A DNA stretch of 21,098 nucleotides from Candidatus Rokuibacteriota bacterium (GTDB taxonomy: Bacteria > Methylomirabilota > Methylomirabilia > Rokubacteriales > JACPHL01). The notes under the pieces are model-generated. The model ran no database searches. It had not been told where the DNA came from and worked only from the letters and a program-made list of their open reading frames with translations. Below are positions 2,859 through 19,842 of this stretch, piece after piece; within the stretch, counting starts at the first letter, position 1, and every line of letters begins with the position of its first letter. The DNA lies in NCBI GenBank assembly GCA_016188625.1, contig JACPHL010000204.1:1-21098 (forward strand), read 5' to 3'. Position numbers and translations under genes: made by a program.

Positions 2859-3884
2859 ATGAAGCTCCCCCGGATCGCCGCGGTCGCGACCGCCGTCCCG
2901 CGGCCGCGCTTCTCCCAGGACGAGCTCCTCCGCTTGGCCGGCTACCAGGACCCCCTCCGCCAGGGCTTCTTCCGGCGGAGCGGGATCGAGGGGCGCCACC
3001 TCTGGGTCGATCCCATCCGCCCCCGCCGCGACGAGGGGGTGGACGAGCTGGCCGCGCGGTTCCGGGCCGGGGCCCTCGCGCTGGGGCAGGAGGCCGTCCT
3101 CCGCTGCCTCGAGCGGGCCCGGCTGACCGTCCAGGACCTCGACTTCTTCGCCACCACGACCTGCACGGGCCGGCTCTGCCCGAGCCTCGACGCCCACCTG
3201 ATCCAGGCCCTCGGGATGCGCGAGGATATCCAGCGCGTCCACGTCGGGGACACCGGGTGCTCGAGCGCCGTGGTGGCGCTCCAGCAGGCCTGGAACCACC
3301 TGCGGGCCTTCCCGGGGCATCGGGCCCTCGTGCTGGCGGTCGAGGTCTGCTCGGCGGCCTACTCCCTCGACGACAGCCTCGAGACCGCCGTGGCGAACGC
3401 CATCTTCGCCGACGGGGCCGGGGCCGCCCTCCTGGCGACGGGGGAGGCCGGGGTCGCGGTGGTGGACCACCGGACGCTCTTCCGCTCCGAGCACCTCCCG
3501 GCCATGGGGTTCGTCTTCCCGGGCGGCCGCCCCCGGGTGGTGCTCAGCAAGGAGGTCCGCCGGATCGCGCCGGCCATGATGGGGGAGCTGGCGGACCGGC
3601 TCCTGAAGGACCACGGGCTCGCGCGGGAGGCGATCCGCTTCTGGGTCCTCCACTCGGCCGGCCGGCGGGTCCTGGAGCGCGCCGCGACCGCCCTGGGGCT
3701 CAGCGAGGCCGACCTGGCCTACTCCCGGGACGTCCTCCGGCGGTTCGGGAACCTCTCCTCCGCCACGATCCTCTTCGTCCTGGAGGCGATCCTGGCCTCG
3801 GGCGCCCCCCAGCCCGGCGACTGGGGGGTCATGATCGCCCTCGGCCCGGGGTTCGCGGCCGAGGGGGCCCTGCTCCGCTGGTAG
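2859..3884 (+). CDS. Type III polyketide synthase (chalcone/stilbene synthase family)
   Basis: This 341-aa thiolase-fold enzyme extends a CoA- or ACP-linked starter with malonyl-CoA and cyclises the chain. The catalytic triad is complete: Cys134 (GDTGCSSAV), His265 (WVLHSAG) and Asn298 (FGNLSSAT). The His-to-Asn spacing of 33 residues equals that of plant chalcone synthase, and the family's GNMSSATVLF motif is nearly intact. Ketoacyl-ACP synthase III is less likely because the GNxSSATILFVLE signature is typical of type III synthases. The gene leads an operon with a methyltransferase 7 bp downstream and an FAD oxidoreductase. By analogy with Streptomyces srsABC, the product may be an alkylresorcinol, alkylpyrone or quinone-type lipid; the exact compound cannot be read from sequence. 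The ribosome-binding site is weak. Confidence 0.92.
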   Translation: MKLPRIAAVATAVPRPRFSQDELLRLAGYQDPLRQGFFRRSGIEGRHLWVDPIRPRRDEGVDELAARFRAGALALGQEAVLRCLERARLTVQDLDFFATTTCTGRLCPSLDAHLIQALGMREDIQRVHVGDTGCSSAVVALQQAWNHLRAFPGHRALVLAVEVCSAAYSLDDSLETAVANAIFADGAGAALLATGEAGVAVVDHRTLFRSEHLPAMGFVFPGGRPRVVLSKEVRRIAPAMMGELADRLLKDHGLAREAIRFWVLHSAGRRVLERAATALGLSEADLAYSRDVLRRFGNLSSATILFVLEAILASGAPQPGDWGVMIALGPGFAAEGALLRW

Positions 3885-3891
3885 GCTGACG

Positions 3892-4614
3892 ATGCTCCTT
3901 CGCGAGGAGGCGGCGACCGAGCTCCTGGACCACCCGGGCGACGGCTCGGCCGAGCTGGCCGGGAACCTCGCCGACCTGGCCCGCCTGAACCGCTACTTCG
4001 GGGCGACCCGCACGGTCCTCGGCCAGCTCGAGCGGCTCCTGGCCTCCACCGCGCCGGAGACACCGGTCTGGGTCCTGGACCTCGGCACCGGCGGAGCCGA
4101 CATCCCGGCCGCCATCGTCCGCTGGGCCCGGCGTCGCGGCCGCCGGCTCCGGGTCCGGGCCGTGGAGCGCGACCGGGCCATCCTCGCCCAGGCCCGCCGG
4201 GCGGTCGCCGCGTACCCCGAGATCACCCTGCTCCGGGCCGACGCCCTGGCCCTCCCCGTGCGGGACGGGGGCGTCGAGGTCGCCTTCTCGACGCTCACGC
4301 TCCACCACCTCTCGCGCGAGGAGGCGACCCGGCTCCTCGGCGTCATGGAGCGCGTGGCGCGCGTGGGGTTCTTCGCACTGGACCTCGCGCGGAGCCGCCT
4401 CGCCTACGCGGGCGTCTGGCTCGTCACCCGGCTCCTGTCGCGCAACCGGATGACCCGCCACGACGGCCCCCTCTCGGTCCGGCGGGCCTTCACCGGACCG
4501 GAGCTGGCGGCGCTGGCGGCCCGGGCGGGGATCGAGGGGCTCTCGATCTCGCGCCCGCGGCTCTTCCGCCTCATGGCCCTCCGTCGCAAGGCGACGGGGG
4601 CGGCCGGGCGCTGA
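3892..4614 (+). CDS. Class I SAM-dependent methyltransferase
   Basis: This 240-aa soluble methyltransferase has motif I VLDLGTGGAD (residues 61-70), an acidic residue after strand 2 (AVERD), motif II-like ADALALPVRDG and the post-motif segment FSTLTLHHLS, as in the Methyltransf_11/25 families. It sits between the polyketide synthase (7-bp gap) and the oxidoreductase (4-bp gap), so it most likely methylates the polyketide or its oxidised product on oxygen or carbon. It differs from SrsB of Streptomyces, which is a membrane methyltransferase of the isoprenylcysteine type. The substrate is unproven. Confidence 0.88.
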   Translation: MLLREEAATELLDHPGDGSAELAGNLADLARLNRYFGATRTVLGQLERLLASTAPETPVWVLDLGTGGADIPAAIVRWARRRGRRLRVRAVERDRAILAQARRAVAAYPEITLLRADALALPVRDGGVEVAFSTLTLHHLSREEATRLLGVMERVARVGFFALDLARSRLAYAGVWLVTRLLSRNRMTRHDGPLSVRRAFTGPELAALAARAGIEGLSISRPRLFRLMALRRKATGAAGR

Positions 4615-4618
4615 CCTC

Positions 4619-5845
4619 GTGGGACCGGCCCGGCCTGAGGTCTACGACGCGATCGTGGTGGGCGCCGGCCCGGCGGGGAGCGCCTGCGCCGTCCACCTGG
4701 CGGCGCGCGGGCGCTCGGTCCTGCTCCTCGACAAGGCCGGCTTCCCCCGGGCGAAGGTCTGCGGCGAGTACCTCTCGCCGGAGACCGCCCGGCTCCTGGA
4801 TCGCCTCGGCGCCCTCGAGGTGGTCGAGGCGGCGGCCCGACCGGTCAGGGGGATGCGGATCGTCGCCCCGGACGGCACCGAGCTGGTCGCCGAGTACCCG
4901 CGCGCGGGGCCCCACCGGGGCTACCGGGATCACGCCCTGGCCATCCCGCGGCTCGAGCTGGACCGGATCCTCCTGGAGCGCGCCAGGGCCTACCCCATCG
5001 ACGTCCGGGAGGGGTTCCGGGTCACGGACCTGCTGCTCGCCGGGGAGCAGGTGACGGGGGTGCGCGGTCTCGCCCGCGACGGCGGGGTCGAGGCCTTCCG
5101 CGGCCGGCTGGTGGTCGGGGCCGACGGCCGCCACTCCGCGGTCGCCCGCCGGCTCGGCCTGATCCACCCCCATCCCCGGCTCCGCCGGCTCGCCCTCGTC
5201 ACCCATCTCCGCGGGGTCGAACGGTTCGACGGGCACGGCGAGATCTACCTGGCCCCGCCGTTCTACGCGATCCTCAACCCCCTCCGGGGGGATCGGTGCA
5301 ACGTGAGCGTGGTGGGGCCGCTCGGGCGGGTCGCCCCGCGGCAGTGCGAGGTCGAGGCCCGCTTCGCCGCCTGGCTCGCCTGCGTCCCCGCCGCGGCCGC
5401 GCGGGTCGCCGGGGCGACCCCGGCCGGGCCGATCCGGGCCCTCGGCCCGCTGGCCTATCGGGTCGCCCGCCCGCGCCAGGCCGGGGTCCTGCTGGTCGGC
5501 GACGCGCGGGGGTTCTACGATCCGTTCACCGGCGAGGGGATCTACACGGCCCTCCGCTCGGCCGAGCTGGCGGCGGAGGTCGCGGTAGCCGCCCTGGCGG
5601 CGGGCGACTATTCCCAGAGTGCCCTCGCCCCCTACGAGGCCGGGTGCCGGGGGGCCTTCGCCCCCAAGCAGCGGGTGTCGAGGCTGCTCCAGGCCCTCAT
5701 CGCGCGCCGGCGGCTGGCGAACCTCGTCGCCTGTCGCCTCGCGCGGCGGGCTGAGCTCCTCGGGCCGCTGATGGGCGTGCTCGGCGACTTCGTCCCCCCG
5801 AGCCAGCTCCTGACCTCCGCCTACCTCCGCCGCCTCCTCCTCTAA
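4619..5845 (+). CDS. FAD-dependent oxidoreductase (geranylgeranyl reductase / UbiH-like family)
   Basis: This 408-aa flavoprotein has the N-terminal dinucleotide-binding motif GAGPAG (residues 15-20), the KVCGE motif around Cys48 and the second FAD motif GDARGFYDPFTGEGI starting near residue 294. That architecture is shared by geranylgeranyl-reductase-like enzymes and aromatic hydroxylases. As the third gene of the polyketide operon it probably hydroxylates the aromatic polyketide or reduces or oxidises its ring, as SrsC does in Streptomyces. The GTG start, 4 bp after the methyltransferase stop, implies translational coupling. It also resembles FAD enzymes linked to type III synthases in other soil bacteria, from memory only. 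Confidence 0.88.
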   Translation: MGPARPEVYDAIVVGAGPAGSACAVHLAARGRSVLLLDKAGFPRAKVCGEYLSPETARLLDRLGALEVVEAAARPVRGMRIVAPDGTELVAEYPRAGPHRGYRDHALAIPRLELDRILLERARAYPIDVREGFRVTDLLLAGEQVTGVRGLARDGGVEAFRGRLVVGADGRHSAVARRLGLIHPHPRLRRLALVTHLRGVERFDGHGEIYLAPPFYAILNPLRGDRCNVSVVGPLGRVAPRQCEVEARFAAWLACVPAAAARVAGATPAGPIRALGPLAYRVARPRQAGVLLVGDARGFYDPFTGEGIYTALRSAELAAEVAVAALAAGDYSQSALAPYEAGCRGAFAPKQRVSRLLQALIARRRLANLVACRLARRAELLGPLMGVLGDFVPPSQLLTSAYLRRLLL

Positions 5846-6112: not shown

Positions 6113-6141
6113 TTGACACTTTGGCGACGATTGGCCATGAT
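6113..6141 (+). promoter_or_regulatory. Sigma70-like promoter for the exopolysaccharide operon
   Basis: A perfect -35 box TTGACA (6113-6118) is followed after 17 bp by CATGAT (6136-6141), which matches the -10 consensus at four of six positions. Transcription would start near 6148 and leave a leader of about 80 nt. The leader contains a 6-bp hairpin (GGGATG 6191-6196 with CATCCC 6214-6219) just ahead of the ribosome-binding site GGGAGGG at 6221-6227. Confidence 0.7.
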
Positions 6142-6230
6142 GGTGGTTCGCGTCTAGAGGCAGATCTGAGCCGTGAGGGGGTCCGGGGCCGGGATGGGCG
6201 CACCCGCTCACCGCATCCCAGGGAGGGTTG

Positions 6231-7499
6231 ATGGCGAGCCCGATCGTCATAGTGCTCCTCGTCGTCATCGTGTTGACGGTCGGGGCGATCACCGGGTTCT
6301 TTGCGGTCACGGTCTTCCGGCGGATCAACGCCAGGCGCCGGTATCAGCGCCTGGATCGGGAGCGGAAGGTTTTTCGAGAGGCGGTGGCCAGGGTGCTGGC
6401 GGCGCCCGACCTCCGGCTGGACGAGATCAGGGTGTCGCCCCGAGAGAAGATCCGATGGCAGGCCCTGGAGGACGTGTTGCTGGATCTGATCCCCAAGGAG
6501 GAGTACCGGGAGAGGGTCAAGGAGATCTTCCGCCAGCTCGGGTACATCGCGTACTACGAGAACCGGCTCAGGAGGCGGAGCGTGATCGACCGGGCGGCGG
6601 CGATCGACCGGCTGGGGGGGATGCGGAGCGAGGCGTCCGTGGAGCACCTCATCCGCATGCTGGACAGCAAGAACTCGGAGCTGGTCTCCGGGGCGGTGAG
6701 GGCGATCACGCGGATACGCTCGATGGAAGGGTTGAGGGCCATCCTGGAGCGGCTGCCCGCCCTTCGGGCAACCCACCTGATCGCCCAGAAGCTGGTGGAG
6801 GCCTCGCTCGCGAAGCTCGGCCGGGACGGGGCCCCGGTGCTCCTGGAGCACGCCAGGGGGTCCGAGGACCCCGAGATGGTGGCCCTGGTCCTGGAGGTGA
6901 TCTCGAACTTCGAGTTCCCCGAGGCCCTGCCGTTCGTCATCGACCGGCTGCGCGACGGGAATCCCGAGGTCAGGGCCAAGGCGGCCAAGGCGTTCGGAAA
7001 GGTCGATCCCAGGCGGGCCGGCCCCCAGGCCGAGCTGTTGCTCCCCATGCTCGAGGACCCCGTCTGGTACGTCAGGCTCCAGGCCGCCAAGACCCTCGGC
7101 AGCATGAAGCACACCCCGGCCCGGGCCGGGGTGGGGCGGCTCTTGCTGGACGACAAGTGGCAGGTGCGGGGGACCGCCGCGACCGCCCTGGTGAGCATCG
7201 GCGAGGGGGTTATCGACATCTTCTGGCAGATCCTGAAGCAGAACGACCGCTACGCCAACGAGAGCATCTGCGAGGAGATCGGGAAGACCGAGCTCATCCG
7301 TCGCCTGATCGATAACCTCGCAGTCCCCGCCGCCGCGGACCACCAGAAGTCCCGGGAGGTCCTCGAGACCATGGTGTCGCTCCGGTTCACCGCCCAGCTC
7401 GAGGAGGCGATGGCCTCCGACCCCCGCCCGCATGTCCGGAGCGAGCTCGCGCGCATCCTCGAGGGCCCGCCGGCCGAGACGCCGTCCGAGAGGGCATGA
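6231..7499 (+). CDS. Membrane-anchored HEAT-repeat protein
   Basis: The 422-aa product has one N-terminal transmembrane segment (about residues 4-27) followed by a basic stretch and a long alpha-helical domain. Repeated two-helix units with HEAT-like features (for example DRLGGMRSEASVEHLIRML, then DRLRDGNPEVRAKAAKAFG, DPVWYVRLQAAKTLG) run from about residue 115 to 400. HEAT arrays are protein-interaction scaffolds, so this is likely a cytoplasmic scaffold held at the inner membrane. It is the first gene after the promoter at 6113 and its stop lies 4 bp before the glycosyltransferase start, so it probably assembles with or regulates that enzyme. ATG 6231 was chosen over the adjacent TTG 6228. 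No enzymatic motif was seen. Confidence 0.85.
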   Translation: MASPIVIVLLVVIVLTVGAITGFFAVTVFRRINARRRYQRLDRERKVFREAVARVLAAPDLRLDEIRVSPREKIRWQALEDVLLDLIPKEEYRERVKEIFRQLGYIAYYENRLRRRSVIDRAAAIDRLGGMRSEASVEHLIRMLDSKNSELVSGAVRAITRIRSMEGLRAILERLPALRATHLIAQKLVEASLAKLGRDGAPVLLEHARGSEDPEMVALVLEVISNFEFPEALPFVIDRLRDGNPEVRAKAAKAFGKVDPRRAGPQAELLLPMLEDPVWYVRLQAAKTLGSMKHTPARAGVGRLLLDDKWQVRGTAATALVSIGEGVIDIFWQILKQNDRYANESICEEIGKTELIRRLIDNLAVPAAADHQKSREVLETMVSLRFTAQLEEAMASDPRPHVRSELARILEGPPAETPSERA

Positions 7500-7503
7500 T
7501 TCG

Positions 7504-8925
7504 GTGAAGGCGTTCATCTCGACAGCGATCATCGGCTTCAACTATCTCGTGGCCTTCTACTACGGGATGATCAACTCGGTCTATACCGTCCTGCTCAGTC
7601 TCGCGCTCGTCGTCGTCCTCGCGCACATCCAGCGCATCCGATACTCGGCGGTCCGCGAGTTCCGGTTCTCGCCGGAGACCCCGCCGGTCTCCGTGCTGAT
7701 CCCGGCCTACAATGAGTCGGGCGTCATCGTGCAGGCCGTCACCGGCGCCCTGCAGCTCGACTACCCCTCCTTCGAGCTGATCGTGATCAACGACGGCTCC
7801 CGGGACGACACCCTCGAGAAGCTCATCGACACCTTCGGGCTGAAGCGGATCGACCTGGCCTACCGGAGCCTCCTCAAGACCAAGCCGGTCAGGGGGTTCT
7901 ACTACAGCCCCGAGCGGCCCAACCTCCTGGTCATCGACAAGGAGAACGGGGGCAAGGCCGACGCCTTGAACTGCGGCATCAACGCCGCCAAGAGCCCCTA
8001 CTTCGCCTCGGTGGACGCGGATTCGGTCCTCGAGCGCGACGCCCTCATCCGCCTGATGGCGCCCATCTCGCAGAGCACGCTCCCCGTCGTCGCGTGCGGC
8101 GGGGTCGTCCGCGTCCTGAACGGCACCGTGGTCAAGGACGGGATCGTCCAGGAGATCGCCCTGCCCCGGGACACCCTCAGCATGTTCCAGATCGTGGAGT
8201 ATCTCCGGGCGTTCCTCTTCGGCCGGGTCGGTTGGGACGCGGTCAACGGGCTCCTCATCGTCTCGGGCACGTTCTCGCTGTTCAGCAAGGCCGCCGTGAT
8301 GGCCGTGGGGGGGTACGATACCCGGAACGTGACCGAGGACATGGAGCTGATCGTCAGGCTCCAGCGGCACTACCTGACCCGGCGGGAACGCTACATCATC
8401 CGGTTCATCTCGGACCCGATCTGCTGGTCCGAGGCGCCCGAGAGCCTGAAGATGCTGGCCCGGCAGCGCCGCCGGTGGCACCTGGGCCTCATCCAGAGCA
8501 TCATGAAGCACCGGGTGATGCTCTTCAACCCCGCCTTCGGACGGATGGGGCTGTTCGTGGCCCCCTACTACCTCTTGTTCGAGGTCTTCGGCCCCGTGAT
8601 CGAGGTCTTCGGTTACGCCGCCGTCCTGCTCGCCCTGGGCCTCAGCCTGCTGAGCTTCGAGTTCTTCGCCCTGTACGTCCTGCTGGCCATCTTCTACGGG
8701 GTGTTCCTCTCGATCATCGGCGTGTTCCTGGAGGAGATCACCTATCGCCGCTACCCGACGTGGGAGCACCTGTTCCGGCTCCTGACCTACGCCCTCATCG
8801 AGAACTTCGGCTACCGGCAGCTCAACTCCCTCTGGCGCTTCGAGGCGACGTTCCTGTATATTTTCGGGCGGCGGCGCTGGGAGGTCGTCGAGGGGAAGGG
8901 TCGCTATCTCTCGCGACCCCGGTGA
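7504..8925 (+). CDS. Processive family 2 glycosyltransferase (PgaC/cellulose-synthase-like)
   Basis: This 473-aa inner-membrane enzyme should polymerise a nucleotide sugar and extrude the chain. An N-terminal hydrophobic region (about residues 4-40) precedes the GT-A domain. All four hallmarks are present: Asp97 (NDGS), Asp171-x-Asp173 (DAD), the catalytic base Asp279 in TED, and Q321-RRR-W325, the QxxRW motif of processive beta-synthases. Further hydrophobic segments follow (about residues 350-420). The order and the ENGGKADALN segment resemble poly-N-acetylglucosamine synthase PgaC/IcaA and hyaluronan synthase more than BcsA. No C-terminal PilZ domain is present. The deacetylase and barrel protein downstream favour an amino-sugar polymer, but the donor sugar cannot be proved. 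The GTG start is 4 bp after the HEAT gene. Confidence 0.92.
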   Translation: MKAFISTAIIGFNYLVAFYYGMINSVYTVLLSLALVVVLAHIQRIRYSAVREFRFSPETPPVSVLIPAYNESGVIVQAVTGALQLDYPSFELIVINDGSRDDTLEKLIDTFGLKRIDLAYRSLLKTKPVRGFYYSPERPNLLVIDKENGGKADALNCGINAAKSPYFASVDADSVLERDALIRLMAPISQSTLPVVACGGVVRVLNGTVVKDGIVQEIALPRDTLSMFQIVEYLRAFLFGRVGWDAVNGLLIVSGTFSLFSKAAVMAVGGYDTRNVTEDMELIVRLQRHYLTRRERYIIRFISDPICWSEAPESLKMLARQRRRWHLGLIQSIMKHRVMLFNPAFGRMGLFVAPYYLLFEVFGPVIEVFGYAAVLLALGLSLLSFEFFALYVLLAIFYGVFLSIIGVFLEEITYRRYPTWEHLFRLLTYALIENFGYRQLNSLWRFEATFLYIFGRRRWEVVEGKGRYLSRPR

Positions 8926-8958
8926 CCCGCCCGTGACACCCCGTCGTGAGGGGAGAGG

Positions 8959-11805
8959 ATGCGCCACTTCGGGTTGATCAGGGCCGATTTTCTGGTCGCC
9001 CTGGCGTTGACCGTGGGGGTCGTGGCGGGGCTCTCCTACGGGCTGTACCTCCTGGTCTCCGGACGCGGAACGGTGGCCTACGACGCTGCGCTGGAGGCGT
9101 ACAACCGCGGCGACCACCGCGAGGCCCTCCGACTCCTCGAGGCGGCCTCCACCGACCGCCCCGACTCGGTCGGCGTCGTGACGCTGCTCGGCTGGAGCTA
9201 CTATCGGAGCGGGGAATACGGGCTGGCGGAGCAGTCGTTCCGCCGGGCGACCGCGCTGGAGCCCAAGCTGGAGGAGGCCAGGCTGGGTCTGGCCTACGCG
9301 AGCCTCGCCAACGACCGCCCCACGGTCGCCCTGCCCTTGCTGGAGGAGCTGATCCCCAAGAGGCCGGAGGACGCCGAGCTCCACCTGGCCCGCGCCGAGG
9401 CGCGGTTCAAGCAGGGCGAGAACTTCGCCGCCGCCGCGGCGTACCGCGACCTGATCCAGCGCGGTCTCGGGGCCGCGACCGCCCGGGAGCGCCTCCTCGC
9501 CCTCTACGGGTACCCACCGTATGCGAGTCTCGACGATCTCCCGCGGGAGTTGCCGCCCATGAGCCGGTCCCCCTCCCTGGTCTTCGACTTCCGCACCCGC
9601 GGGAATTACTTCGAGGTCCGCGACGGCGCCGGCTGGAGGCGGACGTACCTGAAGGGGGTGAACATCGGTCCGGCGCGCCCCGGCGAATTCCCCTCCACGC
9701 CTCCCCTCGACGTCGCGACCTATCGCGAGTGGCTCGATCAGATCGGCCGCATGAACGCCAACGTCGTCCGCGCCTACACCATCCTGCCGCCGGCCTTCTA
9801 CCGGGCCCTCAGGATCCACAACGAGGGCTCCCCCCGCAAGCTGTGGCTGGTCCAGGAGGTCTGGCTCACGGAGCGGGAGGACCACGAGGACTGCGACCTC
9901 TACGACGCGGCGACCGTGGAGGAGTTCCAGCGGGAGATCCGCCACGTGATCGACCTCCTCCACGGCCACGCCGACATCCCGTACCGGCGCGGTCACGCCG
10001 CCGGTATCTACACGGTCGACGTCTCCCCCTACGTGATCGCCCTGGCGCTGGGGCGCGAGGTCGATCCCTACGTCGCCCTCTGCACCAACAAGGCCAATCC
10101 CGCGAAGACCGGCCACCGGGGACGCTTCGTGAGCCTCGCGGGCGGCAACGCCACGGAGACCTGGTTCGCGGAGATGGCCGACCTCGCGATCCAGTACGAG
10201 CTCGAGCGGTACCACGCCCAGCGCCCGCTGACCGTCGTCAACTGGCCGCCCCTGGATCCCATACCCCACGTCACGGAGGCCAACTACGCCGAAGAGGTGA
10301 AGATCCGGCGGGCCCGCGGGGAGGAGGTGGACGAGGTGCTGACCCGCCCGCCGAACGACGCCGACGCGGTGGCGCTCCACATCGGGAAGTTCACGGTGAC
10401 CCCGGAGTTCCGCGCCGGGCTCTTCGCCACGTACCACGTCTACTCCTACTGGCCGGACTTCATGCTCTACGATCCCGCCTATCCGCTGACCCGGGACGAG
10501 GAGGGCACCAACCGCTACCTCGGGTACCTCCTGAACCTGAAGCGGCACTACCCCGACATGCCGGTGTTGATCGCCGAGTACGGGGTGCCGGCCAGCTGGG
10601 GGGTCGCCCACATCCATCCCGAGGGGTGGAGCAACGGCGGCTTCTCGGAGAAAGGCCAGGCCGAGCTGCTGGTCCGGATGACCCGGAACATCCGGGGCGC
10701 GGGGATGGCGGGGGGGATCGTGTTCGCCTGGCAGGACGAGTGGTGGAAGCGGGTGTCGGACGACTTCACCCGCCCCTTCATGCGGCCGGCCTGGCGCAAG
10801 CCCCTCTGGCTCAACCAGCTCGACCCCGAGGAGCACTTCGGGCTGTTGGGCTACCGCCCCCCCGCGCCGGTCCCCCTGCTCCGCGGGGACCCCGACGACT
10901 GGAGAAAGGCGACGCGGCTGATCGCGACACCCTCGAAGCGGCCCGCGGCCGGGGCCCTGAAGGCCGTGTCCGCGTTCTCGGATGCCGCCTTCCTCTACCT
11001 CCGGCTGGACATCGAGAAGGGCGACGGCGCCGAGCGGCTCTTCGACTGGACCCGGGTCCAGTACTGGATCGCGCTGAACGCGCTCCCCGGCGAGGCGGGA
11101 TCGCGGGCGCTGCCCGAGGTCGATCTCACCCTCGGGACGGGCGCCACCTTCCTGCTGCAGCTCGCCGGCCCCGACTCGGGGCGTCTCCACATCGCCAAGA
11201 ACTACAACCCCCAAGTGTGGCGCGCCAAGAACGGCGTGCCGGGAGGGTGGCGGTTGTGGCGCTGGGCCGGGCTCCGGGCGGCGCTGGAGGACGCCGCGCC
11301 GTTCGGGGAGCTGATCATCGAGCCGAACCCGCCGCGCTACGGCCGGGACGGCAGCGTGTTCCCCCCCCTGTTCATGAGCCGGAGCGGGCTCGAGCACGGG
11401 ACGGCCGATCCGGCCTCGGACGACTCCTCCAGCCGCTCGGCCTGGCGCGCCGATGAGGCCAGGGGCATGATCGAGGTGCGGATCCCCTGGGGTCTGCTCT
11501 ACGTCATGGATCCGTCGAGCCGCCTGGTCCTCGGGGGGACCGACGACGACGCCAGTCCCGTGGCCCGCGAGAGCCCGGGGATGGCCGTGGTCGCGCTCGC
11601 GGTCAGGGTGTCCGTGGACGAGAAGGGCGTGCGCCGGGCGCTGCTGGACGCCTTGCCCGCCCCCAGCCGGGGGCGGATCAGCGCGGACCGGGTGCCGGTG
11701 TACGCCTGGCCGAGGTGGGACCGCGTCCACTACGAGCCGTATCTCAAGCCGAGTTACTTCGCCCTGCAGAAGGCCTTCGGCGGGCTGGAGGCCCCGGCCG
11801 AGTGA
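8959..11805 (+). CDS. Membrane-anchored TPR / TIM-barrel glycoside-hydrolase-like protein
   Basis: The 948-aa product begins with a transmembrane anchor (about residues 11-35). Tetratricopeptide repeats (about 40-175) follow, then a TIM-barrel domain of the GH2/GH5 clan (about 205-640) opening with KGVNIGPARPGEFPS and NANVVRAYT. Candidate catalytic acids are Glu367 (LGREVDP) and Glu540 (LIAEYGVP), followed by the aromatic loop FAWQDEWW. The C-terminal 300 residues form beta-rich sequence (VSAFSDAAFLYLRLDI) like DOMON/CBM9-type domains. It is probably periplasmic and acts on, trims or guides the polymer made by the glycosyltransferase. In PgaB a deacetylase and a hydrolase domain are fused; here they are separate genes. 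Substrate and activity are unproven. The ATG has a GGGGAGAGG ribosome-binding site. Confidence 0.82.
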   Translation: MRHFGLIRADFLVALALTVGVVAGLSYGLYLLVSGRGTVAYDAALEAYNRGDHREALRLLEAASTDRPDSVGVVTLLGWSYYRSGEYGLAEQSFRRATALEPKLEEARLGLAYASLANDRPTVALPLLEELIPKRPEDAELHLARAEARFKQGENFAAAAAYRDLIQRGLGAATARERLLALYGYPPYASLDDLPRELPPMSRSPSLVFDFRTRGNYFEVRDGAGWRRTYLKGVNIGPARPGEFPSTPPLDVATYREWLDQIGRMNANVVRAYTILPPAFYRALRIHNEGSPRKLWLVQEVWLTEREDHEDCDLYDAATVEEFQREIRHVIDLLHGHADIPYRRGHAAGIYTVDVSPYVIALALGREVDPYVALCTNKANPAKTGHRGRFVSLAGGNATETWFAEMADLAIQYELERYHAQRPLTVVNWPPLDPIPHVTEANYAEEVKIRRARGEEVDEVLTRPPNDADAVALHIGKFTVTPEFRAGLFATYHVYSYWPDFMLYDPAYPLTRDEEGTNRYLGYLLNLKRHYPDMPVLIAEYGVPASWGVAHIHPEGWSNGGFSEKGQAELLVRMTRNIRGAGMAGGIVFAWQDEWWKRVSDDFTRPFMRPAWRKPLWLNQLDPEEHFGLLGYRPPAPVPLLRGDPDDWRKATRLIATPSKRPAAGALKAVSAFSDAAFLYLRLDIEKGDGAERLFDWTRVQYWIALNALPGEAGSRALPEVDLTLGTGATFLLQLAGPDSGRLHIAKNYNPQVWRAKNGVPGGWRLWRWAGLRAALEDAAPFGELIIEPNPPRYGRDGSVFPPLFMSRSGLEHGTADPASDDSSSRSAWRADEARGMIEVRIPWGLLYVMDPSSRLVLGGTDDDASPVARESPGMAVVALAVRVSVDEKGVRRALLDALPAPSRGRISADRVPVYAWPRWDRVHYEPYLKPSYFALQKAFGGLEAPAE

Positions 11806-11823
11806 CCGGGCTCGAGGGGGCCG

Positions 11824-11903
11824 AAAAAAAGGCGGCGAAGGCCTCGACAGGTGGGTTACCCTCTTCACGACGGTGGGTCGAGTTGGGCACCCCGGGACGG
11901 GAG
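11824..11903 (+). promoter_or_regulatory. Structured leader and ribosome-binding site ahead of the barrel gene
   Basis: The 104-nt gap holds an A7 run (11824-11830, unusual here) and an inverted repeat CTCGAC (11843-11848) with GTCGAG (11877-11882). It also contains a small GGG-TTA-CCC stem inside that repeat, and a good ribosome-binding site GGGAGG (11898-11903) that supports ATG 11910. It may adjust expression of the barrel protein relative to the genes before it. It matches no riboswitch consensus I know. Confidence 0.3.
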
Positions 11904-11909
11904 GCTACC

Positions 11910-13559
11910 ATGCTAATGCCGTTGCGACTTACAGGACGCCATCATTGCCCCCCACCTTGTGCCGTGCCTCGTGCCTCAGCGACACGTCCGAGACAGCTCG
12001 CGAGAGTTGGAACGGCCCTGGCGATACTGGTCGGCGTCCTGATGCTGTTCGCGGGGATCGGGGCGGCCGCGGCGGACGAGCGCGTCGAGCAGCTCAAGAA
12101 GGCGATCGAGGCGACGACCGACGTCAAGGAGCAGGCCCGCCTCCACCGGCAGCTCGGCGAGCACTACACCTTTCAGAACCAGCTCGAGGAGGCGGCGGAG
12201 CAGTACCTGAAGGCCCTCTCCCTGGCCCGGGACGCCTTCTCGCCCGAGGAGCGGAAGACCATGGCCGTGCACCTCTCGTGGGCGGGGCGTCGGCAGGAGG
12301 CCGTGGCGGAGCTCCGGGGCGTGGTGGCCGAGGAGCCGGGGAACCTGGACGCGCGGATCCATCTCGCCCGGATCCTGTCGTGGATGGGTGAGCAGAGCGC
12401 GGCGGTGGAGGAGGCGGACCGCGCCCTGCGGGAGTCGCCGGGGAATCGGGACGCGCTGCTGGTCAAGGCGAACGCCCTCCGGTGGAAGGGAGACGCGGCG
12501 GCCGCCATCCCCGTCTACCGCAGGCTGCTCGAGGAGAAGGACGATTTCGACGCGCGGCTCGGGCTGGGCCACGCCCTGCTCGTCGTCGGAGACATCAAGG
12601 GCGCGCGGGAGGCGAGCCGGGGGTTGGCGGCCGAGGCCCCCCAGCAGGAGAAGGATCTGGAGGCCTACCGGCAGGCGGAGAGGGCGGCCACCCGCCCCAG
12701 CATCGACCTGCGCTACAACTACTATGACGATTCGGACGACAACATCGCGAACAGCTATACGCTGCTCTACGGCTTCCTGGTCCAGAACTGGAGGCTGACG
12801 CTGAGGTACGGGCATACCGATGCCAAGGACCCGAGACGGGATGTCCGGGCCGACCATCTCAGCGCCTCGGCGTCGGTCCCCCTGACTGCGCGGCTCCGCG
12901 TGCGCGGCGGCGCCGGGGTCACCCGGCTCGAGAACGGCGACGCCTCCAACGTCCCGACAGGCCACGTCGGCGGCGAGGCGAGCCTCTGGCGGGGGACCGT
13001 CGGGGCAGGGGTCTCGCGCGAGGCCCTCACCGACATCGCCCAGCTCATCGACAACAAGATCAAGGTCAACGATGCCGAGCTGGTCGTCTCGCAGCAGCTG
13101 GCGGCCCGCGTGTCGTTCTACGGCGAGTACCACTACCGCGACTACTCGAACACCAACTTCTCCCACGATCTCCTGCTGAGCCCGAGCTATGTCATCTACG
13201 CGGGGAACCCCCATATCAGCGTCAGTTACCGGTTCAGGTACCGGGATTTCGATCGGCAGACCCGCGGCGGCTACTTCGATCCGCAAGGGTATGTCGCGCA
13301 CCAGGGGACCGGCTCGGTGTCGTTCGAGCTGGGGCGGCTGTACGGAACCGGTTTCGTGTTCGGGGGGTACGAGTCGTTCCGAGACCCGGAGCAGGAGGAG
13401 GGCGACTTCCTCGGGGGAGGCGGGACCCTCGGGTTCCGGCCGACCTCGAACCTCTCCCTCGAGATCGACGGGATCACCAGCTCCGCCGCGGGCCCCGCCG
13501 CGGGGGGGCCCGGCTTCCGGTTCTTCTCGGTCGGTGCCCGACTCCTCTATCGGTTCTAG
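11910..13559 (+). CDS. TPR plus outer-membrane beta-barrel export protein (YaiO/PgaA-like)
   Basis: The 549-aa product has a long basic N region and a hydrophobic core ending GIGAAAADE, a signal peptide cleaved near residue 55. Tetratricopeptide repeats follow (about 60-255), then a predicted beta-barrel (about 265-549) of alternating polar and aromatic strands. It ends in ARLLYRF; a terminal Phe is the usual insertion signal of outer-membrane proteins. This is the layout of PgaA, and the barrel resembles the YaiO family, which in E. coli lies next to a GT2 enzyme (YaiP) and a deacetylase-like protein (YaiS). It is likely the export pore for the polymer. ATG 11910 has the better ribosome-binding site; GTG 11964 would give a more ordinary signal peptide. 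Confidence 0.85.
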   Translation: MLMPLRLTGRHHCPPPCAVPRASATRPRQLARVGTALAILVGVLMLFAGIGAAAADERVEQLKKAIEATTDVKEQARLHRQLGEHYTFQNQLEEAAEQYLKALSLARDAFSPEERKTMAVHLSWAGRRQEAVAELRGVVAEEPGNLDARIHLARILSWMGEQSAAVEEADRALRESPGNRDALLVKANALRWKGDAAAAIPVYRRLLEEKDDFDARLGLGHALLVVGDIKGAREASRGLAAEAPQQEKDLEAYRQAERAATRPSIDLRYNYYDDSDDNIANSYTLLYGFLVQNWRLTLRYGHTDAKDPRRDVRADHLSASASVPLTARLRVRGGAGVTRLENGDASNVPTGHVGGEASLWRGTVGAGVSREALTDIAQLIDNKIKVNDAELVVSQQLAARVSFYGEYHYRDYSNTNFSHDLLLSPSYVIYAGNPHISVSYRFRYRDFDRQTRGGYFDPQGYVAHQGTGSVSFELGRLYGTGFVFGGYESFRDPEQEEGDFLGGGGTLGFRPTSNLSLEIDGITSSAAGPAAGGPGFRFFSVGARLLYRF

Positions 13560-13613
13560 CCCCGCGGCGGTGGCGCCCCCCGGGTCCGGCCGTCGCGGGC
13601 AAGGCCCGATCCC

Positions 13614-14846
13614 GTGAGCGCCCGCTGGCGATTACGGCGGCGCCGGGCCCGCGAGCGATCACGGCGGCGCCGAGCCCTCGGCCTCGCCGTCCTCGCGCTC
13701 GCCCTCGTCGCCCTGGGCGTCCTGGCGTACCTCTACCTCACCCGCAAGACCTGGTGGGAGATCGCCCTGGAACCGGCCCCGGCCAGCTGTCGCTGCGTGG
13801 CCTTCCGGCTAGACGACATCCAGGACTTCTTCACCCGGGAGGCCCAGGTCGATCTGATCAAGATCTTCCTGGAGGAGGGCGTCCCGCTGACCATGGCCGT
13901 GATCGGCGGGAGCCTCCACGACGACCGCGAGCTGATCGAGTTCCTCCAGCCGGCGGCCTCGGCGGGCATCGAGGCGGCCAACCACGGCTGGGTCCACTCC
14001 GACCACACCGCCCTCACCGGCCGGGAGCAGCGCGACTCCATCGTCCGAACCAACGACCGGATCCGGGCGCTCTTCGGGGTCGAGGCCAGGACCTTCGTGC
14101 CGCCGGAGAACCCGTTCAACGACCAGACGCTCTCCATCATGAAGGAGTTCGGCCTCACCCACCTGAGCGGCTCGGTCTTCCTCAAGGCCGATCAGCCTCC
14201 CTTCCCATTGAAGAACGGCGACATGATCTTCCACTTCCCGCAGACGGCCTTCGTGAGCGATGTGGACACGCCCACCGGGGTCTGGCGGTTGGTGCCGCCG
14301 GAGCAGATCCTCGAGATGATCAGGGATTCCGTGGGGCAACACGGGTTCGCCGTGGTCGTCACGCACCCGATCGCGTACTACGACCGGACCGAGGCGGGGT
14401 ACGTCTACCACCGGGCCCTCCTCGAGCCGCTCCGCGAGCTGCTGCGCGAGGTCAAGCGGGGTTTCAAGGTCGTCAGGATCGATGAGATCGACCGGCAGGG
14501 GTGGATCCCGAAGGACGTCCCGCGGACGCTCCGGCTCCGCGAGCACGCGGTCTCCTGGAGGGGGGGCGCGACCAGGCTCGCGACCGGCGCCGAGGTCGCG
14601 ATCGAGGTGCGCGGGGAGCGGCTCGTGCTCGAACGGCGGGGTGGGGCTTGGCCGGCGCCGTTCGTCCTGCTGCTCCCCGAGGCCATCACGCCGGGGGCGC
14701 CCACGATCCTCGCCGCGGGGGAGAGCCTGCCCACCCTCCGGTGGTTCAACCCGGAGGCCGCCACCTGGATCGTCTACGCCGACCCGCCCCCCTGGGCCCG
14801 CTCGCTCCAGGTCATGCCCCAGGGCGGCCCGGCCCCGGGAAGATGA
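13614..14846 (+). CDS. Membrane-anchored polysaccharide deacetylase (NodB/CE4 fold)
   Basis: The 410-aa product has a very basic N terminus (RRRRARERSRRRR), one transmembrane segment (about residues 22-42) and a periplasmic NodB-type domain. Motif 1 is FRLDDIQD with Asp67 and Asp68. Motif 2 is His124-x-x-x-His128 in NHGWVHSDH. Motif 3 is probably FVPPENPFND and a late histidine lies in VVTHPIAYY. Such metal-dependent enzymes remove acetyl groups from N-acetyl sugars. Position after the glycosyltransferase and barrel genes suggests it partially deacetylates the exported polymer, as PgaB and IcaB do. About 110 C-terminal residues form a beta-rich domain of unknown role. GTG start, 54 bp after the barrel gene. 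The RLDDIQD variant differs from the usual TFDDG, so substrate preference may differ. Confidence 0.85.
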   Translation: MSARWRLRRRRARERSRRRRALGLAVLALALVALGVLAYLYLTRKTWWEIALEPAPASCRCVAFRLDDIQDFFTREAQVDLIKIFLEEGVPLTMAVIGGSLHDDRELIEFLQPAASAGIEAANHGWVHSDHTALTGREQRDSIVRTNDRIRALFGVEARTFVPPENPFNDQTLSIMKEFGLTHLSGSVFLKADQPPFPLKNGDMIFHFPQTAFVSDVDTPTGVWRLVPPEQILEMIRDSVGQHGFAVVVTHPIAYYDRTEAGYVYHRALLEPLRELLREVKRGFKVVRIDEIDRQGWIPKDVPRTLRLREHAVSWRGGATRLATGAEVAIEVRGERLVLERRGGAWPAPFVLLLPEAITPGAPTILAAGESLPTLRWFNPEAATWIVYADPPPWARSLQVMPQGGPAPGR

Positions 14847-14917: not shown

Positions 14918-15916
14918 TTACGAGGGGGCGGGGTCGCCGGCTTGAGGCGCGGAGCCCGGGCGGCTCCACTCGAGGACGTCGTGCTCGTCCACCTTCTTCT
15001 CGATGGGGACGAACCCCTCCTTCCGCGCGGCGAGGTCGAGCGCCGCCTTGGAGATCCAGATCGTGTCCGGGGCCGCGTACTTCTGCAGGTGTCCGGCCAC
15101 GTCGATCACGTGATCGCTGACCTCCTCCATCCGGGCGTCGTCGTCGAACATCACCTTCCCGTGGTTGACCCCAGACCGGACCGCGAAGCTCGCCCTGATC
15201 TGCTTGACGTTCCGGTTGAAGTGCTCCAGGCCGCCGAGGACGTCCTGCGCCGCCTTGATCGCGTCGTCCACGCTGGGGAACGCGCACATCATGCCGTCCG
15301 GCGTCCACGCCACCTTCCAGGCCTTGTTGGCCTGCAGGGCCCCGTTCACGAACCTCTTGTACTCGTTGAACGAGTACTCGATCGAGGCCGGCTCTTCGTT
15401 CTCCTTCATCTTCGTCGAGCCGATCACGTCGATGGAGAGAAACGCGAGGTCCTTCTGGGCCTCCTCCAGCTTCCGCTTCGCCTCGATGAACTGCCGGAGC
15501 AGGGTCTCGCGGTCCTCCTTGGTGGCGCCCTTGAGCTGTTCGAGCTTCGTGTCCAGCGCCTGGAGGGCCTCGGACTTCGGGGACAGCCCCCCCCGTAGCT
15601 GCGCCAGCGCCCGTTTGTGCGCGGCGTATTCAGCGTGGAGCTGGAGGCGCTCGCCGTAGGCCCGGAAGGTGCCCCGCAGGACCAGGGCGAGGGCCACGAC
15701 GATCCAGGGCGCCGCGTCGTATCCCCGGATCCTGGTCGGGGCGTTCTGCTGGAGCGTGGCGATGACGGGTTGCGTGATGCGGGTGGCTTCCCTGACCACC
15801 TGGTATTTCTGGGCGCCGTCGATGAACTGGGCCGCCGCCGGGATGACGAACAGGATCGCCGGCAGGAGCATCAGCACCCCCAGGATCCGCAACACGATCC
15901 CCAGCCATTTCAGCAT
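14918..15916 (-). CDS. Membrane protein with degenerate class III nucleotidyl cyclase domain
   Basis: The 332-aa product has an N-terminal membrane segment (about residues 4-30), a likely second one (about 63-80), a charged coiled-coil linker (about 85-155) and a class III adenylate/guanylate cyclase-like domain (about 158-320). Both metal-binding aspartates are present, Asp163 (SIDVIGST) and Asp207 (TPDGMM), and the RSGVNHGKV loop is recognisable. The transition-state Asn and Arg of the canonical VNxAAR segment appear as Asp272 and His276 (IDVAGHL). It may therefore be weak, altered or a binding-only domain. ATG 15916 is set by GGGAGGT seven bases upstream. It converges on the deacetylase gene, with 71 bp between the stops and no obvious terminator. 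Confidence 0.85.
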   Translation of the reverse strand: MLKWLGIVLRILGVLMLLPAILFVIPAAAQFIDGAQKYQVVREATRITQPVIATLQQNAPTRIRGYDAAPWIVVALALVLRGTFRAYGERLQLHAEYAAHKRALAQLRGGLSPKSEALQALDTKLEQLKGATKEDRETLLRQFIEAKRKLEEAQKDLAFLSIDVIGSTKMKENEEPASIEYSFNEYKRFVNGALQANKAWKVAWTPDGMMCAFPSVDDAIKAAQDVLGGLEHFNRNVKQIRASFAVRSGVNHGKVMFDDDARMEEVSDHVIDVAGHLQKYAAPDTIWISKAALDLAARKEGFVPIEKKVDEHDVLEWSRPGSAPQAGDPAPS

Positions 15917-16033
15917 GGGCCGGACCTCCCGTACCCCTCGTGCTCCCGGCCGACCCGCTGGCGGGGGTCCTCCCCGCTGGGGGCCGGGAGGGCGGCACGG
16001 GGAGCCCACCGCTCGGGTCCGATCATAGCCCAA

Positions 16034-16160: not shown

Positions 16161-16246
16161 GAGGGCTCCCTGGCGGAGGCCCAGGGGGGCAGTTGACTGG
16201 ACGGGGGGCGCGCCGCCGGCGAGGGCCCCGGATGAAAGGAGACGGT

Positions 16247-18238
16247 ATGGGCGAGCCCGAGAAAGGGATCCTGTACTGGGGCGGGCCTGGGATTGCTCAC
16301 CCGAGCCAGCTCTACCCGGACGAGCCCGAGATCCACTGCGCCGCGCTGGGCGAGGACGGGAGCCTGCCGGCCAAGCTCCCGCCCCTCCAGGAGGCCATCA
16401 TCCTGGCCGAGTGGTCGCGGCTCCACTCCAACGTCTCGCTGATCGACCGGTGGCGCCAGGCCGTCGACCAGCTCGCCGTCTTCGTGCTGGTGGAGCGGGC
16501 CAAGCTGGGCGAGGCGATCTTCTATCTCGCCGCCAGGGAGGTGGACGACATCATCGAGACCCCCCTGGACTTCGAGGTCATGCGGCGGCGGTTGCGGAGC
16601 ACCTTCCGGCATCTCGCCGCCCGGCGGGAGGCCAAGCGCCTCACCCGGGAGCTCGCCGATCAGACCTTCGACTTCAACGAGTTCAACCGGGTGGCGGTCG
16701 CCCTCTCGGCCGAGCGCGACGTCAACCGCCTGCTCGAGGTCATCCTGACCAAGTGCCGCGAGCTCACCATGGCCGACGCCGGGAGCCTCTACCTCGTCGA
16801 GGGGAAGGAGCCGGACCCCGGGCAGTGGGACGTCTCGGGCGACGTCAAGGTGCTCCGCTTCGTCATCGCCCAGAACGACTCCAAGGCCCTCGACCTCAAG
16901 CAGGCGGTCCTCCCCCTGGACCGCTCGAGCATCGCCGGGTACGTGGCCCTCACCCGCACCCCCCTGAACATCAGGGACGTCTACGACCTCCCCCCCGGCA
17001 CCGGGCTCTCGTTCAACCCCGCCATGGACCAGAAGCTCGGCTACCGGACCAAGTCGATGCTGGTCATCCCCATGGTGGACCATACCGACGAGGTCATCGG
17101 CGTGGTCCAGGTGATCAACCGCAAGCGCTCACGGGAGATCCTCCTGGACACCCCGGAGCGGGCCGAGGCGGAGGTGCTCCCCTTCGGGCTGCGTGACCAG
17201 GAGATGGTGGGCTCCCTGGCCAGCCTGGCCGCGGTGGCCCTCAACAAGGCCATCCTGATCACCCGGATCGAGCGGTTGCTCGAGGGGATCGTGCGGGCCT
17301 CGGTGACGGCCATCGAGCAGCGCGACCCCGTGACCGCGGGCCACTCGGACCGGGTGGCGCGGCTGACCGTCGGATTGGCGGAGGTGGTGGACCGGACGGA
17401 TCGGGGGGAGTACCGGCACGTCCGCTTCGCCCCCGAGGAGCTGAGGGAGCTCCAGTACGCCTCGCTCCTCCACGACGTCGGCAAGGTCGGGGTCCGGGAG
17501 CACGTCCTGATCAAGGGGAAGAAGCTGTTCGAGCATCAGCTCGTGATGATCCGGCTGCGCTTCGACGTCATCGCCCGGACCGTGGAGGCCGAGTACGAGC
17601 GGCGCAAGCTGGAGATCCTCCTGCGCAAAGGGCGGGGGGCGGAGGCGGAGCTCCGGCAGCTGGAGGAGGAGAAGGCGGCGAGGCTCGCGGAGCTCGAGGA
17701 GTACTACCGCGTCGTGACCCAGGCCAACGAGCCCGCGGTCCTCCGCTCCGAGACCAGGACCGGCCTGGAGACCCTCGCCCGGCTCACGTACCCGGATCTC
17801 ACGAGCGCCCCGCGGCCCTACCTCACCGAGCAGGAGATCCTCGACCTCGGGATCCCCAAGGGGAGCCTCAACGACCAGGAGCGGCGGGAGATCGAGTCGC
17901 ACGTCACCCACACCTTCCGCTTCCTGATGCAGATCCCCTGGACGAAGGAGCTGCGGCGGGTCCCGCTCATCGCCTACAGCCACCACGAGAAGCTGGACGG
18001 CACCGGCTATCCCAGGGGGGTGCAGGGCGCGGAGGTGCCGATCCAGGCCCGGATGATGACCATCTCGGACATCTACGACGCCCTGACCGCGGCGGACCGC
18101 CCCTACAAGCGCGCGGTGCCGCTTGACAAGGCCCTGGACATCCTGAAGAGCGAGGCTGCCGCCAGCCATCTCGACAGCGCCCTCCTGGACCTCTTCATCG
18201 AGGCCCAGGTCTACACCTGCCTCGCCAAACCCGCCTGA
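16247..18238 (+). CDS. GAF and HD-GYP domain protein (putative cyclic-dinucleotide phosphodiesterase)
   Basis: The 663-aa cytoplasmic protein has an N-terminal helical region (about 1-145), a GAF sensor domain (about 155-340: LTMADAGSLYLVEG, YRTKSMLVIPM) and an HD-GYP output domain (about 345-655). HD-GYP enzymes hydrolyse cyclic di-GMP or related dinucleotides. The key motifs are present: HSDRVARL, His409-Asp410 (LHDVGK), His552/His555, HHEKLDGTGYP (His579, Gly587-Tyr588-Pro589) and SDIYDALTAADRPYK. Between HD and the next histidine block there are about 140 residues, some 110 more than usual, including a Glu/Arg-rich coiled coil (about 436-490). ATG 16247 has AAAGGAG five bases upstream. 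It lies next to the cyclase-like and exopolysaccharide genes, so control of polymer production is a reasonable inference. Confidence 0.92.
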   Translation: MGEPEKGILYWGGPGIAHPSQLYPDEPEIHCAALGEDGSLPAKLPPLQEAIILAEWSRLHSNVSLIDRWRQAVDQLAVFVLVERAKLGEAIFYLAAREVDDIIETPLDFEVMRRRLRSTFRHLAARREAKRLTRELADQTFDFNEFNRVAVALSAERDVNRLLEVILTKCRELTMADAGSLYLVEGKEPDPGQWDVSGDVKVLRFVIAQNDSKALDLKQAVLPLDRSSIAGYVALTRTPLNIRDVYDLPPGTGLSFNPAMDQKLGYRTKSMLVIPMVDHTDEVIGVVQVINRKRSREILLDTPERAEAEVLPFGLRDQEMVGSLASLAAVALNKAILITRIERLLEGIVRASVTAIEQRDPVTAGHSDRVARLTVGLAEVVDRTDRGEYRHVRFAPEELRELQYASLLHDVGKVGVREHVLIKGKKLFEHQLVMIRLRFDVIARTVEAEYERRKLEILLRKGRGAEAELRQLEEEKAARLAELEEYYRVVTQANEPAVLRSETRTGLETLARLTYPDLTSAPRPYLTEQEILDLGIPKGSLNDQERREIESHVTHTFRFLMQIPWTKELRRVPLIAYSHHEKLDGTGYPRGVQGAEVPIQARMMTISDIYDALTAADRPYKRAVPLDKALDILKSEAAASHLDSALLDLFIEAQVYTCLAKPA

Positions 18239-19164: not shown

Positions 19165-19842
19165 TCACCCGGCGACGAGCCGGCGGAGGGTCGGACGGAG
19201 GCGCTCGGCGAGGCGCCGGTGTCCCTCGGCGCTCGGGTGGAGGCCGTCGAGGGTGAGCCCGGGGGTCCGGGGGATCTCGCCCAGGAAGTCCTCCACCAGG
19301 AGCGCCCCCTCGCGGCGGGCCAGCTCGCGATACCCCTCCAGGTAGGGATCGGCGAGGAGGCCGAGGCGGATGTGGACCAGCACCGCCGCCGCGCCGTCCT
19401 GCCGGACCCTCCGCACGATCGCCTCGAGGTTCGCCAGGGTCCCGGCCACGGGGAGCCGGCGGAAGAAGTCGTTGGCCCCCAGCTCCACGACGACCACCCG
19501 AGGCCGCCACGCCAGGACGTCGGCCTGGAGCCGCGCCAGGGCGCCGGCCGAGGTGTCGCCGTTGACCCCCGCGTTCCGCACCGGCACGCCGAGGGCCTCC
19601 CCCACCAGGTGCGGGAAGGCCTGCTCCCGGGGCAGGGTATACCCCGCGGTGATGCTGTCGCCGAGGAAGACGATGAGGTGTCGGGAGGGGTCGCCGGCGG
19701 GGGGTGGGGACGGCGGCCGCGGCCAGAGCCAGAGCCCGCCGAGGACGAGCGCGGCCAGGAGCGCCGCCGCGAGACCGACGGCCCTGCCGCCGCGCGGCCT
19801 GGTCGAGATCCGGGTCGGTCGAAGCCCTCCGCTCCCGCGCAT
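19165..19842 (-). CDS. SGNH/GDSL-family esterase (TesA-like lipase/arylesterase)
   Basis: The 225-aa product has a hydrophobic N-terminal segment (about residues 21-40, after a basic start) that acts as a signal anchor, followed by a complete SGNH hydrolase domain. Block I is GDSIT with the nucleophile Ser63, block II is NAGVNGDT, block III is GAND (Asn124) and block V is DGLHP with Asp199 and His202. These enzymes cleave thioesters, lysophospholipids or aryl esters in the periplasm. Size and motif order match E. coli TesA, although substrate cannot be deduced. The ATG lies 101 bp from the divergent transporter gene, so the two may share control. No strong promoter was picked out on this strand. 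Confidence 0.88.
   Translation of the reverse strand: MRGSGGLRPTRISTRPRGGRAVGLAAALLAALVLGGLWLWPRPPSPPPAGDPSRHLIVFLGDSITAGYTLPREQAFPHLVGEALGVPVRNAGVNGDTSAGALARLQADVLAWRPRVVVVELGANDFFRRLPVAGTLANLEAIVRRVRQDGAAAVLVHIRLGLLADPYLEGYRELARREGALLVEDFLGEIPRTPGLTLDGLHPSAEGHRRLAERLRPTLRRLVAG

Follow-up and report, generated by a model that had tools for sequence, protein, structure and literature searches.

Five co-directional genes on a 21,098-nt stretch of DNA from a Candidatus Rokuibacteriota bacterium (contig JACPHL010000204.1; hereafter the window, to whose full length all coordinates refer) very probably make up a synthase-dependent exopolysaccharide system that is complete and belongs to a class not yet described. 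They encode, in order, a HEAT-repeat protein, a family 2 glycosyltransferase (GT2), a tetratricopeptide repeat (TPR) protein with a glycoside hydrolase (GH) domain, a TPR-barrel protein and a NodB-fold deacetylase, which together would synthesize a sugar polymer, trim and deacetylate it, and export it. A first-pass annotation of this DNA had arrived at the same reading, which our analysis supports; as in that annotation, the joint function is inferred. We regard the set as an undescribed, widespread variant of the synthase-dependent exopolysaccharide systems.

Architecture and components of the operon

The open reading frames and their Pfam domains bear out the presence and common orientation of the five genes, which are tightly packed between 6228 and 14846, with intergenic gaps of 4, 33, ~105 and 54 bp. 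For the GT2 gene, 7504 was taken as the start; the listed start at 7432 would overlap the HEAT gene. The features are as follows.

6228..7499, + strand: HEAT-repeat protein, 423 amino acids (aa), or 422 aa from ATG 6231 (open reading frame, Pfam, hydropathy)
7504..8925, + strand: processive GT2 polysaccharide synthase, 473 aa (Pfam, NCBIfam, motifs, GT2 tree)
8959..11805, + strand: membrane-anchored periplasmic TPR and GH protein (TPR-GH), 948 aa (Pfam TPR, predicted fold)
11910..13559, + strand: predicted outer-membrane export porin with signal segment, TPRs and 16-strand barrel (ATG 11910; alternative GTG 12006)
13614..14846, + strand: membrane-anchored NodB-fold polysaccharide deacetylase, 410 aa, DUF2334-like subfamily (open reading frame, Pfam, hydropathy)
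6113..6141, + strand: weak sigma-70-like promoter match (TTGACA-17-CATGAT) upstream of the operon
16193..18238, + strand: GAF-HD-GYP protein, a possible cyclic di-GMP (c-di-GMP) phosphodiesterase (Pfam/NCBIfam); a neighbour, for which membership of the system is not claimed

The single promoter proposed in the first-pass annotation is represented by the one match listed, but chance alone would yield 0.5 such matches over the region, which makes it a suggestion at most.

The protein that leads the operon matches Pfam HEAT with 95 bits, and its hydropathy displays a single N-terminal transmembrane segment, in agreement with the membrane anchor assigned to it earlier. This segment is followed by the Arg-rich stretch RRINARRRYQR, which by the positive-inside rule suggests a cytoplasmic location of the HEAT domain. 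The second protein matches Pfam GT2 with 85 bits, has several hydrophobic segments and contains the anticipated catalytic motifs DADS, TED and QRRRW, as read from the sequence. Its Pfam match, QRRRW motif and hydrophobic segments correspond to the inner-membrane synthase that defines synthase-dependent systems (PMC7112194). In that definition there is also a regulatory or partner position, for which the HEAT protein is a candidate; Pfam finds no PilZ domain on the GT2, and the PgaD profile (PF13994) has no match in the 84%-complete metagenome-assembled genome from which the window derives. The reported absence of PgaD is thus upheld at the level of the genome, whereas that of PilZ holds for the locus and its GT2 only, since PilZ proteins are encoded elsewhere in the same genome. 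Because of its frequent adjacency to GT2 genes, we propose the HEAT protein as the synthase partner.

Pfam TPR matches are found in two operon proteins, TPR-GH and the TPR-barrel. In TPR-GH, an N-terminal anchor (residues 11-29, preceded by basic residues according to hydropathy) is followed by TPRs at ~40-170, a predicted TIM barrel of clan GH-A and a C-terminal beta-rich domain, consistent with the periplasmic hydrolase-like protein described in the first-pass annotation. The hydrolase-like part has no Pfam match even at E up to 5, and phmmer finds no meaningful relative of it among PDB sequences; only fold comparison gave one. The AlphaFold2 model, built from 45 sequences (pLDDT 89.6, pTM 0.92), displays an eight-strand barrel and, C-terminal to it, beta-rich parts. 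The closest solved fold found by VIA-align is GH157, an endo-beta-1,3-glucanase family (Z 33.0, root-mean-square deviation 2.5 over 315 residues, 18% identity), followed by GH2 beta-glucuronidases and a GH5 mannanase at Z ~27. A profile of the 45 sequences matches no GH157 chain in the PDB. The TPRs, the membrane anchor and the synthase operon context set the protein apart from that family.

In clan GH-A, the typical arrangement is a pair of glutamates, one where strand 4 ends and one where strand 7 ends. The predicted fold carries an invariant pair in these positions, with E185 directly following strand 4 and E358 closing strand 7 (E367 and E540 of the full protein), which form a putative catalytic pair and agree with the structural definition of GH157. 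Both are conserved in 93 of 100 GH family sequences; the departures are the Planococcus/CotH type and the second copies of tandem Paenibacillus genes. Such tandem copies occur in L010 (7845-13158) and L072 (9809-15101), with the first catalytic Glu changed in the second copy, which is perhaps a non-catalytic binding partner. Some Bacillota members are extended at the N-terminus to ~1030-1095 aa by a region with a DKTVP-like motif (L064 8768-12052, L088 8652-11891, L010 10057-13158); the same motif also stands at the start of an independent gene that follows the barrel in L116 (589-1719, minus strand).

The fourth protein starts with a signal-like segment (hydropathy), and its model, built from five sequences (pLDDT 73.8), combines TPR helices with 16 strands, thus resembling the TPR domain coupled to an outer-membrane pore of known synthase-dependent systems (PMC7112194). 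In Foldseek, BcsC leads the PDB matches, PelB of PelBC comes next and AlgE ranks lower. As whole-chain TM-scores are low (~0.3), this likeness is support rather than proof. The earlier description as an outer-membrane TPR barrel accords with these predictions, but the label "YaiO-like" was dropped, as no YaiO model in NCBIfam matches at E 0.01.

The fifth protein matches Pfam Polysacc_deac_1 with 60 bits and displays an N-terminal transmembrane anchor preceded by basic residues (hydropathy), in line with its annotation as a NodB deacetylase. Together with the GH-A domain, likewise behind an N-terminal anchor, it represents the periplasmic modification step of synthase-dependent systems (PMC7112194).

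From these components a mechanism can be outlined. Judging by its motifs and family, the GT2 would polymerize a nucleotide sugar in the cytoplasm and thread the chain across the inner membrane. The one-segment HEAT protein would assemble or regulate the synthase, in the place of PgaD or BcsB. On the periplasmic side, anchored TPR-GH may bind, cut or proof-read the nascent beta-glycan with a retaining GH-A site, as hinted at by the predicted fold and the conserved residues, and the anchored NodB enzyme would remove acetyl groups, a role suggested by its family. The TPR domain of the barrel would receive the chain and its predicted 16-strand pore, modelled with moderate confidence, would export it. 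In monoderms, HEAT, GT2 and GH would work without the barrel.

Distribution and origin

Homologues of TPR-GH were detected by tblastn on plasmids of Deinococcus radiophilus, Paenibacillus cellulosilyticus and Planococcus maritimus, in each case next to genes for a HEAT protein and a GT2. When GTDB species genomes were scanned with an alignment of three sequences, at least 574 GH relatives emerged, the best 80 of which underlie the locus statistics, obtained with hidden Markov models for each component and an improved HEAT model. These 80 loci come from Acidobacteriota, Gemmatimonadota, Nitrospirota, Bacillota, Bacteroidota, Ignavibacteria, Cloacimonadota, Delongbacteria, Spirochaetes, Eisenbacteria, Cyanobacteria, Thermus and the archaeon Halovivax. 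The HEAT-GT2-GH triad is spread over more than ten phyla, Deinococcota included. Among the 52 loci that are fully flanked (at least 5 kb on both sides), this co-occurrence search found a GT2 within 8 kb of the GH in 44 and HEAT directly beside GT2 in 37; in all, HEAT relatives adjoin GT2 in 49 of the 80. The archaeal GH member, in Halovivax asiaticus (L089 9860-12139), has a Tat-like signal and a GT2 ~4.6 kb away.

The complete set of HEAT, GT2, GH, deacetylase and barrel is present in six other loci (L044, L050, L059, L030, L115, L118), from Nitrospirota, Ca. Abyssobacteria and one metagenome-assembled genome without assigned lineage, so that the five genes are conserved together outside the window. 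Partial forms were found as well: the last four genes before a contig end (L120), a set without deacetylase (L116), barrel-HEAT-GT2 (L121) and a solitary barrel (L119). Monoderms carry HEAT-GT2-GH without barrel. What is conserved as a unit is therefore the HEAT-GT2-GH triad, to which barrel and deacetylase have been added. Orthologues of the window barrel, 37-43% identical, are encoded in L030, L044, L050 and L059, and 10 of 245 genomes of the phylum of L059 have orthologous barrels. In other diderms, among them Geothrix, Acidobacteriales and Eisenbacteria, the GH adjoins TPR proteins that are less closely related and match the barrel model in part.

Compared with the six other five-gene loci, the order of deacetylase and barrel is swapped in the window, and the window deacetylase is, by its sequence, of a different, DUF2334-like subfamily. 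The swapped position and the other subfamily together suggest a separate recruitment of this gene as the probable course.

The tree of GT2 sequences places the window inside the five-gene loci, with enclosing groups supported at 100/95 and 99/97. A search of 95 genomes from the phylum of the window found the GH family in 1, and 98 other relatives yielded no further copy. A pyruvate dehydrogenase (PDH) E1-beta encoded on the same contig has counterparts in five relatives of the same order, with identities of 83-85% in three of them and 77-78% in the other two, on the strength of which a binning error was judged unlikely. The tree position, the rarity of the GH in the phylum and the PDH E1-beta identities point to a probable horizontal gain of the operon in this lineage.

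Comparison with known systems and alternative explanations

A survey of synthase-dependent operons from 2020 distinguishes five polymers, namely cellulose, acetylated cellulose, poly-N-acetylglucosamine (PNAG), alginate and Pel, and does not mention HEAT proteins (PMC7112194). The first-pass annotation knew of no named system with this gene set, and we likewise found no characterized locus that matches it: models of the PNAG and cellulose synthases and of PgaA score far below their cut-offs, and the open-access literature searched holds no description of the system as polysaccharide machinery.

The likeness is greatest to pgaABCD/icaADBC, which also combine a PgaC-like GT2, a deacetylase, a hydrolase-like domain and a TPR protein with a 16-strand porin. 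The operon could hence be a divergent pga operon in which HEAT replaced PgaD and PgaB was split. PgaC_IcaA (TIGR03937) is the best NCBIfam match of the GT2, the combination of deacetylase, hydrolase and TPR-barrel follows the PNAG plan, and environmental pga-like operons without pgaB and pgaD have been reported (PMC7112194). We nevertheless consider this origin improbable. The PgaC_IcaA match reaches 135 bits against a cut-off of 422, and the PgaA model (TIGR03939) reaches 29 bits on the barrel against 367. PgaD was not found in the genome and a HEAT partner is present instead, the deacetylase is a separate protein, and the GH-A domain, near GH157, GH2 and GH5, sits on its own TPR protein and differs from the PgaB-type domain, as is established for the latter. 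Moreover, the Nitrospirota-type deacetylase is not seen beside most of the monoderm triad loci that were read.

Other known systems are more distant. The cellulose operon bcsABZC shares a GT2 synthase, a periplasmic hydrolase and a TPR-porin, BcsC being the best fold match of the barrel, whereas the window GT2 lacks PilZ and reaches 53 bits with the CelA model (TIGR03030; cut-off 699), and its hydrolase fold is nearest to GH157; BcsB is not among the Pfam matches of the operon, to which this search was confined. Pel systems, including the Gram-positive form (PMC7112168), likewise have hydrolase and deacetylase steps, the TPR porin PelB and a c-di-GMP link; the synthase here is in contrast a membrane GT2 with a HEAT partner, and no Pel-type gene is among the Pfam and NCBIfam matches of the operon, again the extent of the search. 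Escherichia coli NfrBA-YbcH is also a GT2 and outer-membrane protein synthase system outside the classical five, but NfrB bears an MshEN c-di-GMP domain and neither a HEAT nor a GH-A protein is reported there (PMC8669469).

Could the triad instead glycosylate a lipid or a surface protein, or make a short oligosaccharide, with no exported polymer? HEAT and TPR scaffolds are of a generic kind, lipid-linked sugars are also among the products of GT2 enzymes, and the monoderm forms have no export pore. The GT2 carries the QxxRW motif of processive enzymes along with several hydrophobic segments, the diderm five-gene form has a BcsC/PelB-like barrel, and diguanylate cyclases and deacetylases are neighbours, which makes such a role very unlikely. 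That the GH is a polysaccharide-utilizing enzyme of a catabolic locus is the least credible alternative, with hardly any probability left to it: GH157 and GH2 fold neighbours are mostly degradative, but in most loci the GH is paired with a GT2 synthase and HEAT, it is membrane anchored in the window, and recurrent sugar transporters were not seen in the loci read by eye.

Several observations weigh against a polymer-exporting system built on HEAT, GT2 and GH. GT2 is not nearby in 8 of the 52 fully flanked loci, and a Bacteroidota-type group and a spirochaete keep GT2 and GH with no HEAT found, indicating that HEAT is not universally needed. One or both Glu are missing from some GH members, so that the essential activity may be other than hydrolysis. 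For the barrel, confidence in the model is moderate, as given above. Between the window deacetylase and its counterparts in the other five-gene loci, identity is only 19-21%, so that the fifth gene was not simply co-inherited. Finally, no biochemical or genetic test of any member was found in the open-access literature. The Bacteroidota-type loci form a coherent group in which GT2 and GH are separated by a TPR protein; their GH is longer, at ~1000 aa (L047, L053, L061, L065; TPR protein checked in L047 and L061).

Regulation, Clostridia loci and significance

The neighbours of the triad in several Bacillota loci include a response regulator (REC), a PAS-histidine kinase and an Hpt-GGDEF-REC protein. 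A single-sequence search found a GGDEF gene in 11 loci, mostly directly upstream of HEAT. In the window, the GAF-HD-GYP gene lies 1.3 kb downstream of the operon, past a divergent cyclase-like gene. The GGDEF neighbours in Bacillota and this HD-GYP gene make a c-di-GMP link plausible: such control is likely in Bacillota, whose triads often have a diguanylate cyclase gene next to them, and possible in the window through the HD-GYP neighbour. That HEAT acts as a c-di-GMP receptor is speculation.

The Planococcus-type GH occurs in 29 of 297 genomes of a Clostridia order, and eight of nine Clostridia loci read (L148-L155) display the order VTC-DUF4956-CotH-GH-HEAT-GT2. A similar order is found in the Clostridium perfringens locus NELoc-2, with VTC genes (232/230 aa), membrane "tubulin/FtsZ" genes (226/222 aa), CotH (497 aa), a hypothetical gene (685 aa), HEAT (377 aa) and a GT2 with a "chitin synthase" match (466 aa) (PMC2879425, Lepp 2010). 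Gene order and protein sizes are close to those of the eight Clostridia loci; as the comparison was made with the published table, we infer rather than observe that NELoc-2 belongs to the HEAT-GT2-GH loci. Its 222-226 aa "tubulin/FtsZ" genes probably encode DUF4956 membrane proteins. Unlike the window, NELoc-2 has no barrel, and the literature found assigns it no polysaccharide function. Gram-positive pel operons, too, have CotH, polyphosphate polymerase and DUF4956 genes with them (PMC7112168), and the occurrence of these genes with both pel and triad loci suggests a general accessory module.

A broader proposal is that HEAT-GT2-GH represents a sixth, pan-phylum synthase-dependent class of monoderms and diderms, with HEAT as a signal-responsive co-polymerase (under a phosphorelay-controlled diguanylate cyclase in Bacillota) and NELoc-2 as a member. 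We put this forward tentatively, as possible rather than probable.

Three other regions of the window were noted. At 14918-16033 (minus strand), the gene divergent from the operon is class III nucleotidyl-cyclase-like, with a weak Guanylate_cyc match. Consecutive type III polyketide synthase-like (chalcone synthase), methyltransferase-like and FAD-dependent oxidoreductase genes at 2859-5845 (plus strand) resemble a small polyketide cluster. The SGNH-type esterase motif GDSITAGY was read from the sequence alone at 19165-19842 (minus strand).

The machinery looks additional to the five synthase-dependent polymers counted so far (PMC7112194). It supplies a GH-A family without a Pfam model and a HEAT protein as a candidate synthase partner. 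Since culturable genera carry the set (Geothrix, Paenibacillus, Metabacillus, Deinococcus), the polymer is directly testable. For NELoc-2, which is associated with avian necrotic enteritis and has so far lacked an explanation, it offers a concrete hypothesis, namely that its genes may serve the synthesis of a surface polysaccharide.

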